From positions 1 to 64,000 of the forward strand of contig JAABRR010000017.1 in assembly GCA_011390785.1 (NCBI GenBank): 64,000 bases of DNA. Direction: 5' to 3'. Below the pieces are notes generated by a model, which saw only the letters and a list, made by a program, of their open reading frames with translations, was not told the DNA's origin and searched no databases. Shown here one piece after another: positions 5,381 to 11,700 of this stretch (the stretch's first letter is position 1; each line of letters begins with the position of its first letter). The DNA is from Sphingobacteriia bacterium (GTDB lineage Bacteria > Bacteroidota > Bacteroidia > Bacteroidales > UBA7960). Position numbers and translations under genes: made by a program.

Positions 5381-5518
5381 GCCAATATAAAGGAACATGA
5401 GCGGCAGGCCTTACCCGGTTCCGCTCGAGTGGGATTAGCTTCGCTGAGCTCGTCCTTCGTCCTTGGTTCCCGGTTGAAACAAATTCATGAAATGGTCTAT
5501 GTACTTTGCAACCGTTTT
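5381..5518 (+). repeat. Dispersed repeat family copy A
   Basis: Shares AGGAACATGAGCGG...CGTCCTTCGTCCTTGGTTCCCGGTTGAA...TCTATGTACTTTGC with copies at 7985, 9359 and 11583. Confidence 0.6.
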
Positions 5519-6232
5519 GTTATTTTTGGAAGAATTAATGGTTTGAATACCAGGAGTATATGGAAAAAGAAAAATCTCCATTAATTCCCAACCTGACTGA
5601 CAATAAGAATAAGCAATTATTTTGTGTTATGATATTGCCCTGGTTTCTGAATCTGGCTGATTCTGGGTTATATCAAAATCGCTTCAACCGGATGCATACA
5701 CCTGCCACCTGCTGCAAAAAACCTGACATCCTTGGAAAAAGTAGCTTCTAAGTTAGCCGCTAAGTGGAAATTGTATTTCCGCTTCGAACAGCCCAAATGG
5801 TAAAACTACAAGGATAGCGTCCAGGCATCAGCAAATATAAATCATTTACCGGTTGGCCCCATAAATTGTCGCATTACAAGTTTAGCGAATTGGAATAAGA
5901 AACCGTAAGCCCGGCGAAACCCATTCCGGATCAAAACAGGATTATTGTTTTCATTATGCCAGAGTTAAAAAAAATACATGTACGAACAAAGTATTTTTAT
6001 ATATTTGGGGTATTCTAAATAAATTTAAAAAAAGGTAGTTTCAGGCACAAAAAAATTAAGATCAGGATGTCCAGATGTAAATAATGGAATTGGAAAATCA
6101 ATTTTAGTTCGGGTATTCCGGAAAACAATTTTAATCAAAACACAAACTGCGATACAATAAGAATCATTGAGTTTTAATTACCCACCATTATTTGGAGAAT
6201 AAAAAGTAGTTTAAAGATGGAGATATAAACGA

Positions 6233-6239
6233 GTTAGCC
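6233..6239 (+). other. attC-like core box GTTAGCC upstream of ORF 6270-7226
   Basis: Exact reverse complement of GGCTAAC at 7221-7227; followed by CACAAATTTAAGACG, similar to the GTTGTGCACAATTTTAAAAGAC sequence at 7345. Confidence 0.4.
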
Positions 6240-6269
6240 ACAAATTTAAGACGCAACTCACAAATGTAG

Positions 6270-7226
6270 ATGATAAAAAACACACCATCATATAATGACT
6301 ATAAAGAGGTGGCGATTGAATGCCTTATTCAATCATTTTACAACATTTCTGAAATAGATAATCATTTGACAAGCAGAACTCCAAGAGAGAAACTATGGGA
6401 GTATAATCAAATTGTTCTAAGGACCTCCATTGTTCTAATTCACCAAGGAATTGAAGGATTGATGAAGGCGGAAATTTGTCAGAAATCACCACTTTTACTA
6501 TTGAATAATAAACGAAGTGAATGGAATAGTTTGCCGAATTCTGCTGACCAAGACTTTTCTGAATTATATACAATTGCAGGTGAAGATTTATTGAAAACTT
6601 TTTATGCATGTATAAATGAAAAAAGCATAAACCCCAATTTTTTAGGTCTTTATGAAGAAATTAGAACAAAAAGAAATAAAATTATTCACGGATTAGGCGC
6701 CGAAAAACTTAATCCTGACACAATTTTGAAATATATCCTGAATTCATTTACATACTTATTAGGTAAGGATAGTTTTTGGCAATCTGTTCTAATTAAATTT
6801 TATAAACATCCTGGTTTTGAACATGATGATGACCAAGTTGATTGGGAAGAAAAAATCCAATACAATAAAATTGAATATCTAAACTTCTTTTTAGGTAAGG
6901 CAGAGTTAAATAAGCATTTTTCTGTTGATATAAAGGCAAGAGCCTATCTTTGTCCTTATTGCACAGAAAATGGTGAGCTTTATACAAATTCTGGGGTAAA
7001 CCGCCCAACAAGTAAATGGGCATTTTTACATCCGAATAAACCAAATAGCAAAGTAGTAGCTTGCATTGTGTGTCAGGCCGAATATGAAGTAATAAGAGAA
7101 GATTGCACCCAAGAGAATTGCAAAGGTAATGTTAAATATTTACTTCAAAAAGGGGATGAAGATGAACCAAATATTTGGGTATGTTTAACATGTTGGAACG
7201 AAGAAGACAAGAAAATCTGTGGCTAA
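6270..7226 (+). CDS. HEPN-like protein with C-terminal zinc-ribbon cysteine pairs
   Basis: 318 aa; helical N-terminus with RNKIIH (Rx4H) motif; CPYC...CIVC and later C-rich pairs. Confidence 0.55.
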   Translation: MIKNTPSYNDYKEVAIECLIQSFYNISEIDNHLTSRTPREKLWEYNQIVLRTSIVLIHQGIEGLMKAEICQKSPLLLLNNKRSEWNSLPNSADQDFSELYTIAGEDLLKTFYACINEKSINPNFLGLYEEIRTKRNKIIHGLGAEKLNPDTILKYILNSFTYLLGKDSFWQSVLIKFYKHPGFEHDDDQVDWEEKIQYNKIEYLNFFLGKAELNKHFSVDIKARAYLCPYCTENGELYTNSGVNRPTSKWAFLHPNKPNSKVVACIVCQAEYEVIREDCTQENCKGNVKYLLQKGDEDEPNIWVCLTCWNEEDKKICG

Positions 7227-7351
7227 CATCATATATATACAATGCAGGGCTATGTTTTAATTTAACCAGTCTGCTACGCATCAAATTTTGTCACGGTGGA
7301 TAGTTTTGAAGCCCGCACCCCTGCACTGTATTTATATGAGACCCGTTGTGC
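7221..7351 (+). repeat. attC-like imperfect palindrome
   Basis: GGCTAAC (7221-7227); arms CATATATATACAATGCAGGG (7230-7249) and CCCTGCACTGTATTTATATG (7319-7338), 18/20 complementary; ends with GTTGTGC (7345-7351). Confidence 0.5.
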
Positions 7352-7404
7352 ACAATTTTAAAAGACAGACGAGTCAAAGTTTGAAATTAAAATGAATTGA
7401 TTTA

Positions 7405-9358: not shown

Positions 9359-9480
9359 GCACACCAAAATACAGGAATATGAGCGGTCTGCAAGCCCAGC
9401 GAGTTGACCGCGTCCTTCGTCCCCGGTTCCTGGTTGAACTAAATCCATGGGTAGAACCCATCTGCTTAGTCACGATTTTG
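9359..9480 (+). repeat. Dispersed repeat family copy C
   Basis: GCACACCAAAATACAGGAATATGAGCGGTCTGCAAGCCCAGCGAG...CGTCCTTCGTCCCCGGTTCCTGGTTGAACTAAATCCATGGGTAGAACCCAT; starts 3 bp after the toxin stop codon. Confidence 0.7.
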
Positions 9481-9894
9481 CATTCAGCATTTGTTGAAAA
9501 CCGATTTAACAGCTCACTTTCATCACCCCGGTTTTCTCTATCAACCATACAATCATCCCCTTCAGCATTAAATATTTTCCTGGCCATTCCATTCGCTTTA
9601 CTTTTGCTTTTGTAAACCAACTTTAATTTAATTATGAAATCAATAAACATTCTGATTATGGCAATTATATTACCAAAAGCCTGGAATATACTTGTTGCCA
9701 GCTGCCAGTGGCCCTGAAGTTGGATGATGAAATTCCCAATATTCTGTTATTTTGGATTATGCTGACCCATGCCTTGCGCAGCCAGAAGAAATATTGATGA
9801 TGTGATTACATTTGTATGTTAAGGGGTTGGGCTTAATACAAAAAACTCTGGCACATGGATAGAGAGTAAAAAAAAGAAAGAAATTATCATATTT

Positions 9895-10506
9895 ATGGAA
9901 ATAGATATTCGAAAAACAGAAACAAATGATTTTCTGATAACAGAAAACATTACCCGTGAAACATTCTGGAATTTGTTTAAATCCGGTTGCGATGAACATC
10001 TGGTTTTACATAACCTTAGAAAAAGTAATTGTTATATACCTAACCTTGACATGGTTGCCTTATCGGATAACAGAATAATAGGACATATTATAACTACAAA
10101 AGCCAAGGTAGTAAGCAATCAAAACAATGAATACCATGTTTTATGTGTTGGCCCAATTTCGGTTCTTCCTGAACTTCAAAAAAAAGGGATTGGGGGCAAA
10201 CTCTTAAATAAATCAATTGCTATTGCAAAAGACTTAGGTTTTTCGGGAATGATACTTTTTGGACACCCCGGTTATTATCAGCCTTTTGGATTTGTTAATG
10301 CGCAGAAATTCGGAATTACAACAAAAGAAGGATTGAATTTTGAGCCTTTTATGGCTTTAGAATTACATCAAAATGCTTTATTAACTGTAAGCGGTAAGTT
10401 TTATGAAGATAAAGCATTTGAGATTAATGAAGAAGAACTCAATGAGTTTGAAAAACTTTTTCCGGAAAAAGAGAAGGGCGACCCTAAAATTAACATTAAT
10501 CATTAG
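9895..10506 (+). CDS. GNAT-family N-acetyltransferase
   Basis: 203 aa; VLPELQKKGIGGKLLNKSIAIAKDLGFSGMILFGHPGYYQPFGF acetyl-CoA binding motif. Confidence 0.9.
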   Translation: MEIDIRKTETNDFLITENITRETFWNLFKSGCDEHLVLHNLRKSNCYIPNLDMVALSDNRIIGHIITTKAKVVSNQNNEYHVLCVGPISVLPELQKKGIGGKLLNKSIAIAKDLGFSGMILFGHPGYYQPFGFVNAQKFGITTKEGLNFEPFMALELHQNALLTVSGKFYEDKAFEINEEELNEFEKLFPEKEKGDPKININH

Positions 10507-10513
10507 AAGCAAA

Positions 10514-11575
10514 ATGACACTAGAAGAATTAGGATATAATGAAAAGTTTGAAGCATTCAGAATTGAACAAAAACTAAATGACTTTGAACCGGGAAGGATA
10601 ATCGCGGAACATAAGGAACGCTTTACCGTAAAAACAATGCAAGGAGAATATGAAGCCGAAATTACGGGAAATATGAGATTTTCAGCTCTTAGTCGTGAAG
10701 ATTTTCCGGCTGTGGGTGACTGGGTTGCTTTGACTACGTTTGATTCAGATTCTGCGATAATACACAGAATATTTCCAAGATTCTCAATTATTAAACGACA
10801 AGCAGTTGGACATTTCGGAGAGATTCAAATGATAGCCACAAATATTGATTTCGCTTTTTTAATTCAGGCAGCTGATAGAGATTTCAATATCAACAGACTT
10901 GAAAGATACCTGACTATTTGTTATTCATCAAATGTTAGCCCTATAATTGTACTTAATAAAATTGACCTAATTGATGAGCAAAGATTAGATGAGCTATTGG
11001 AAAGTATTAAGTTGCGAATTAAGGATGTTCCAGTTATTGCTCTTAGTAACGAGACTCAAAACGGATACGAAACCATCAGAAAAACTATTGAAAAGGGGAA
11101 AACGTATTGTATGCTTGGTTCTTCAGGAGTTGGAAAATCAACCCTATTAAATAATCTTTCTGGCAGAAATATAATGAAAACGGATTTGATTAGTCAAAGT
11201 ACCAGTAAGGGGAGGCATATAACGAGCCATAGAGAATTAATTATTCTTGAAAGTGGTGGAATTCTTGTTGATAATCCCGGCATGAGAGAAGTAGGAATTG
11301 CCGACACAGCCTATGGATTAGAAACTACCTTTGACAAAATTATTAGTCTCTCTCATAATTGCAAATTCAAAGATTGTACCCATACAACTGAGACTGGCTG
11401 TTCAGTTCTGGAAGCCGTTGAAAAAGGAGAAATAGAAAAAAGCACCTTCGAAAATTACCTGCGGCTGGAAAGAGAAAAAGCACATTTTGAATCAACGGTT
11501 GAAGAACGACGCAAGAAAGATAAAGAATTTGGGAAAATGCAAAAGAAGTATAAAAAAGATATAGGCAAAAAATAG
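10514..11575 (+). CDS. rsgA: Ribosome small-subunit-dependent GTPase A (RsgA/YjeQ family)
   Basis: GSSGVGKSTLLNNL P-loop, NKIDL, circularly permuted order, C-terminal CKFKDCTHTTETGCSVLEA zinc motif; start set at 10514 (MTLEELGYNEKFEAF). Confidence 0.92.
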   Translation: MTLEELGYNEKFEAFRIEQKLNDFEPGRIIAEHKERFTVKTMQGEYEAEITGNMRFSALSREDFPAVGDWVALTTFDSDSAIIHRIFPRFSIIKRQAVGHFGEIQMIATNIDFAFLIQAADRDFNINRLERYLTICYSSNVSPIIVLNKIDLIDEQRLDELLESIKLRIKDVPVIALSNETQNGYETIRKTIEKGKTYCMLGSSGVGKSTLLNNLSGRNIMKTDLISQSTSKGRHITSHRELIILESGGILVDNPGMREVGIADTAYGLETTFDKIISLSHNCKFKDCTHTTETGCSVLEAVEKGEIEKSTFENYLRLEREKAHFESTVEERRKKDKEFGKMQKKYKKDIGKK

Positions 11576-11582
11576 GTACTAA

Positions 11583-11700
11583 GCGCAATAATAAGGAATA
11601 TGGCGACACGACCCGGCGATTGTTAGATTCGCTGAGCCCGAGCTCATTCCGCGATTAACAGTTGAACTAAATTCCTGGGCAGAACCCATCGGGGGGAGAT
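11583..11700 (+). repeat. Dispersed repeat family copy D
   Basis: GCGCAATAATAAGGAATATGGCGAC...GTTGAACTAAATTCCTGGGCAGAACCCATC; starts 8 bp after the rsgA stop. Confidence 0.65.

Follow-up and report, generated by a model that had tools for sequence, protein, structure and literature searches.

An attC-targeting IS91-family element very probably entered the attC sites of an integrase-less cassette cluster in Bacteroidota

Introduction

Integron gene cassettes move by way of a hairpin site, attC, and in each cassette the terminal R'' box and the R' box at the start are reverse complements. The studied members of the IS91 family of transposable elements use a tetranucleotide target of the GAAC/GTTC type. 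Here we analysed a stretch of 64,000 nucleotides (hereafter the window; contig JAABRR010000017.1 of assembly GCA_011390785.1, Sphingobacteriia bacterium, positions 1 to 64,000), in which unrelated genes at 5.4-11.7 kb are punctuated by four copies (A-D) of a repeat. We consider it very probable that this region is a cluster of attC sites lacking integron-integrases (CALIN) that was entered by an attC-targeting IS91-family element of Bacteroidota, at three or more sites of the window (B, C and D) and probably at A as well. Attachment-site-specific insertion has been described for group IIC-attC introns, which enter attC in the orientation opposite to that of cassette transcription and also occur in CALINs (PMC7923331), and for the IS1111-attC elements, insertion sequences with a DEDD transposase (PMC11187229). 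For ISCR28 in sul4 modules, attC sites at or right after the gene were interpreted as the result of passive shuffling (PMC12772301).

The locus shares with known integron cassettes and CALINs the per-cassette R''/R' complementarity, the attC hairpins, the G^TT boundary, a cargo of toxin-antitoxin and GNAT genes and the lack of an integrase, but transposon ends interrupt several of its attC sites. The element resembles IS91 and ISCR elements (HUH Y2; NF033538, PF04986 and PF14319) in its transposase, in the origin (ori) end downstream and the termination (ter) end upstream of the gene, and in the lack of target duplication, whereas the extra tyrosine recombinase, the attC-like ori hairpin and the attC R'' target set it apart. 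This target, RYYYAA^C, is cut between A and C; it contains the AAC of GAAC but is not cut after C. Group IIC-attC introns likewise insert at attC, but they are RNA-based and cut the bottom strand at TTGT/T, whereas the present element is made of DNA and uses an AA^C cut on the top strand. The IS1111-attC elements are also attC-specific insertion sequences, but with an unrelated enzyme and unrelated ends. ISCR28 is, like the present element, IS91-like with attC nearby, and its insertion specificity and junctions are left unresolved in PMC12772301. In the open-licence literature, no description of an IS91/tyrosine-recombinase lineage targeting the attC R'' box was found, and the lineage with this targeting appears to be new.

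Results

The element enters the R'' box of the top strand past AA and before C (RYYYAA^C), without target duplication, with its ori end facing the gene and its ter end facing the remainder of attC. This was shown on relatives and with empty and occupied sites at the aadS gene, whose attC is uninterrupted, reading CGTCGTACAA^CATCGTATTGG, in plasmids NZ_CP072214, NZ_CP072225, NZ_CP073240 and NZ_CP104210 (Bacteroides, Riemerella and Empedobacter), and is split exactly at ^ (AA^C) by 2313-2314 bp in the two Myroides plasmids NZ_CP013691 and NZ_CP102755 (p63039 and pMA84474). Comparison of the two states revealed no target duplication in Myroides, and beyond the aadS attC the next cassettes diverge from G^TT onward, the pattern expected of integron recombination. 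In Tenacibaculum CP116296, a cassette bracketed by two elements carries R'' TGTGCCTAAC and R' GTTAGGCACA, which match at 10/10 positions; an empty site was looked for there, and none was obtained. On human/animal plasmids of Bacteroidota (L223 NZ_CP013691, L225 NZ_CP102755), the aadS cassette with its attC neighbours blaMYO-1, tet(X2) and catB; to our knowledge, descriptions of aadS do not usually class it as an integron cassette.

These empty sites also bear on the reading of the initial annotation, which takes the repeat as the attC-type recombination site of a new kind of cassette system. The repeat indeed lies 3' of genes in a single orientation and has an attC-like hairpin with GTTGAAC, but the empty sites show that the hairpin came with an element inserting into a pre-existing, different attC. 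The same hairpin is moreover present on elements beside unrelated genes (L159/L170), and the window holds a separate, ordinary attC, leaving the repeat very unlikely to be such a site.

By sequence comparison, the repeat is instead the ori end of the IS91-family element, inserted just past the R'' box of attC, and its position 3' of genes is inherited from the targeted attC. The same end lies ~200-240 bp 3' of the transposase stop in the intact or partial copies at G002:C288, G002:C332, G030:C239 and G025:C12. A search of 84,980 species genomes gave 577 relatives of the transposase, and the best 80 were retained; a tyrosine recombinase is encoded directly upstream of the transposase in 78 of these 80 best relatives (tblastn), in some cases as a fragment, and a repeat-type ori end was also found at most Bacteroidota loci of the scan. 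Intact relatives across Bacteroidota are ~2.3-2.55 kb long and consist of the IS91 Y2 transposase (386-390 bits with NF033538) and the adjoining upstream tyrosine recombinase. The catalytic R, K, H-x-x-R, H and Y of this recombinase are conserved in the aligned intact copies, and it scores 161-167 bits against the integron integrase model TIGR02249, below the cut-off of 265, and lacks the IntI-specific insertion (middle segment).

In the Bacteroidota-type ori end, the gene stop is followed by an R'' box ending in YAA, then Y, ~5 nt, the hairpin and GTTGAAC or GTTGCAC. At the ter end, GTTCAA or GTGCAA, which covaries with the ori side, precedes C, the attC remainder including L', and GTT. The ori hairpin is attC-like, with a 5-nt spacer and two stems with bulges before GTTGAAC, and 10 of its 12 pairs show compensatory changes (32 sequences). 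For 46 elements, the stem score of the ter flank averaged 18.0, compared with 11.7 ± 0.37 after permutation (permutation maximum 13.6). The architecture recurs in more distant copies, clostridial and other, with attC context absent by eye, and in the transposase tree most of these stand apart from two Bacteroidota clades. The automatic attC label on this tree is loose, some clostridial copies being flagged by chance, and their flanks are not attC by eye.

The region at 5.4-11.7 kb is a row of ordinary integron cassettes without an integrase. R''/R' complementarity reaches 10, 9, 8 and 8 of 10 positions in the four window cassettes (combined p ~8e-4), and the end of the R'' box is the exact start of the repeat. 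Over 37 cassettes from this and other genomes, the mean R''/R' match was 4.22/8 versus 2.96 ± 0.15, and none of 20,000 permutations rose above 3.59. On this pairing, in the window and in the 37 cassettes, the genes are integron cassettes. The initial annotation was thus right that they are mobile cassettes with a 3' recombination site, which is the attC with its R''/R' boxes and not the repeat, while its proposal of an undescribed system gives way to ordinary integron cassettes. It had also reported that no integrase lies in the window; genome-wide, no integron integrase matched TIGR02249 above the cut-off, and the cluster is thus a CALIN.

True IntI-like genes were found only in the sister genomes G002, G004 and G006, away from these cassettes. 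Their products are IntI-type integrases of full length that exceed the TIGR02249 cut-off (G002:C8:16506-17447, G006:C389:8230-9165 and G004:C277:4336-5271), and the genes share a conserved position on the chromosome, next to which no cassette array could be recognised. In a synteny comparison, non-cassette genes adjoin the DctM gene in G003, G005 and G010, but the left flank could not be matched, so that the comparison only suggests variability.

The first cassette starts with the R' box GTTAGCCACA (6233-6242; coordinates are on the forward strand unless stated), a 10/10 reverse complement of the R'' box at 7218-7227 (p=0.002), and contains the HEPN-like open reading frame (ORF) at 6270-7226, for which no Pfam match was found. 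It ends in an intact attC at 7218-7354 (R'' TGTGGCTAAC ... R' GTTGTGCACA), which is unlike the repeat and has intergenic homologs at G000:C97, G002:C201, G008:C147 and G007:C139. The initial annotation had missed this site, together with a transposase remnant at 8269-8733 and the separate REP-like (repetitive extragenic palindromic) part of the repeat. Cassette 2 (~7346-7990) encodes a membrane protein (7405-7974); 8/10 positions agree between its R' (7345) and R'' (7982) boxes, and this R'' box (TGTGCGCAA^T, 7982-7991) is the entry point of the element. The 3' remainder of the interrupted attC, at 8688-8705, includes GTGACCGTT, common to the C97 attC, and ends in the R' box GTTGGTGTGC (8696-8705), which forms the 5' boundary of the MazEF-type cassette and matches the R'' box at 9358-9367 at 9/10 positions (p=0.043). 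This third cassette (8783-9356) encodes an antitoxin (8783-9019; weak RelN-antitoxin match) and a PemK/MazF-like toxin (8997-9356; PF02452, E 4.7e-14). The fourth, bounded 5' by R' GTTGGGCTTA at 9826-9835 (8/10 with R'' 11579-11588, p=0.13 alone), carries a GNAT acetyltransferase and the RsgA GTPase (9895-11575; PF00583, PF03193). Pfam thus bears out the functions first assigned to the toxin, GNAT and RsgA genes.

The four repeat copies are real, lie on one strand where they had been reported (block starts 5381, 7985, 9361 and 11583), and do not reflect chance, since BLAST also detected the repeat elsewhere in this genome and in congeneric genomes, mostly directly past a stop codon and in the same direction. 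The repeat profile scored all four, which are among its own input sequences, with E values of 5e-32 to 1.8e-22. In the same genome, the copy on C129 matched copy C with E 8e-11 and the consensus with 1.8e-46, and additional copies were found on C83, C112 and C56; among the other genomes of the genus, 8/11 have the repeat, some via the short REP core only. Copies B, C and D begin ~3-11 bp past the stops of ORFs 7405-7974, 8997-9356 and 10403/10514-11575, as first described, and copy A has no abutting gene, the nearest upstream stop being ~190 bp off at 5191.

Copy A (5385-5518) is a decayed ori end with a REP-like insert; its presumed R'' just upstream is TGGTGCCAA, and its cassette was not identified. 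Copy B (7991-8113) is likewise an ori end, and its homology with other remnants extends to 8322, into an opposite-strand ORF: 7966-8322 aligns with G002:C230 (76%) and 7977-8218 with G007:C87 (78%). Between copies B and C, the C-terminal remnant of an IS91-family Y2 transposase lies on the reverse strand (8269-8733; PF04986, E 1.8e-14), 47% identical to a G002 copy. Copies C (9368-9480) and D (11589-11700) are decayed ori ends that follow the R'' boxes GCACACCAA and CTAAGCGCAA, respectively. An Rfam scan of the region gave no match, and because the window copies are decayed, little signal emerged when single copies were folded and compared with shuffles. A different intergenic repeat, with 71-78% identity, occurs in three places beside transposon-end copies (window 5970-6147, L038:4049-4223 and L039:8312-8410).

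One part of the repeat, AGCTTCGCTGAGCTCGTCCTTCGTCC, belongs to a different sequence, REP-like and dispersed in the genus. This sequence, TTAGCTTCGCTGAGCTCGCCTTCGGCTCGGTTCG, occupies many intergenic regions in G004, G008, G010 and G002 (e.g. L064, L071-L073, L077-L086), has inserted in several transposon ends, including window copies A and D, and in G025 lies within an intI reading frame (L090:8280). Dispersal of the REP-like core (TTAGCTTCGCTGAGCTCG) across intergenic DNA of the genus would suit a repeat of the REP or miniature inverted-repeat transposable element type that accumulated by chance in 3' untranslated regions. The core is, however, a secondary insert in some copies only, and the rest of the repeat sits past R'' boxes, co-directional with any abutting gene, as the end of an identified 2.3-kb element; chance accumulation is hence extremely unlikely.

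Elsewhere in the window, three near-identical palindromes, TATACAATCGATTGTATA, at 15435-15467, 19628-19660 and 20775-20807, lie in the neighbouring operons and are probably the operator of a regulator.

Discussion

We propose that the moving form of the element is circular or single-stranded, that the joined ends of this form would rebuild a complete attC consisting of R'' GTTCAAY, the hairpin and R' GTTGAAC, and that the element may recognise the folded top strand of the target attC. The RYYYAA^C junction is that expected of an integron crossover if the top, not the bottom, strand were used, and this junction and the gene-facing ori end in the copies examined fit recognition of a folded attC. 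In the window, internal deletions and decay would have left only the ori ends, which the initial annotation read as a post-gene repeat; the fossils are the ori ends A-D, the transposase fragment at B and the attC 3' half at 8688-8705.

Since the joined ends would make a perfect attC, and since passive shuffling was suggested for ISCR28 near attC (PMC12772301), the IS91 unit might be a plain integron cassette moved by IntI. A G^TT crossover would, however, place the hairpin on the ter side, whereas the examined copies have it on the ori side with the crossover at R'', and the element's recombinase lacks the IntI-specific insertion. We thus regard this origin as unlikely.

Within the proposed attC-targeting by the element, which of its enzymes selects the site can be answered in two ways. 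The IS91 HUH transposase alone could choose attC through a YAA tetranucleotide-like target in a single-stranded R'' box, to which we give somewhat less than an even chance. IS91 transposases are HUH enzymes that act on single-stranded DNA at short targets without target duplication, and the ter end terminates in the same CAA as the target. Nevertheless, the insertions fall on attC R'' boxes, the ori end pointing to the gene, and are not scattered over YAAC sites, and the AA^C cut mirrors the G^TT crossover of the integrase. More tentatively, the element's own tyrosine recombinase might act on the ori hairpin, which mimics attC, and recombine it with the top strand of the folded target attC, with the crossover at R'' (AA^C) and not at R' (G^TT).

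Several points weigh against entry of a CALIN by an attC-targeting IS91-family element. This genome retains no intact element, only one transposase fragment, and insertion at A, C and D is consequently argued from end homology. Apart from an R' box, neither a ter end nor the 3' half of an attC could be identified at A or C, D had neither, and no R' matching copy A was found upstream. Two of the four window R''/R' pairs are weak alone (p 0.13-0.14), and 23 of the 46 ter flanks exceed the strict 95% control threshold, the rest falling below it. Moreover, the elements and loci were chosen as transposase relatives, so that attC-inserted cargo devoid of a transposase would escape.

The finding describes a widespread transposon lineage of Bacteroidota with the integron attC as its niche, including the attC of resistance cassettes such as aadS, which on Myroides plasmids lies next to blaMYO-1, tet(X2) and catB. 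With attC-like sites on both sides after insertion, arrays could stay recombinable, and the ori end, which marks the 3' end of a cassette, offers a handle for cassettes in integrase-less Bacteroidota genomes. If the tyrosine recombinase indeed drives insertion, the element would be an autonomous, self-mobilising integron cassette, and its recombinase would represent a second lineage acting on attC besides IntI. The element also offers a case, open to direct testing, of a second enzyme that reads the folded attC.

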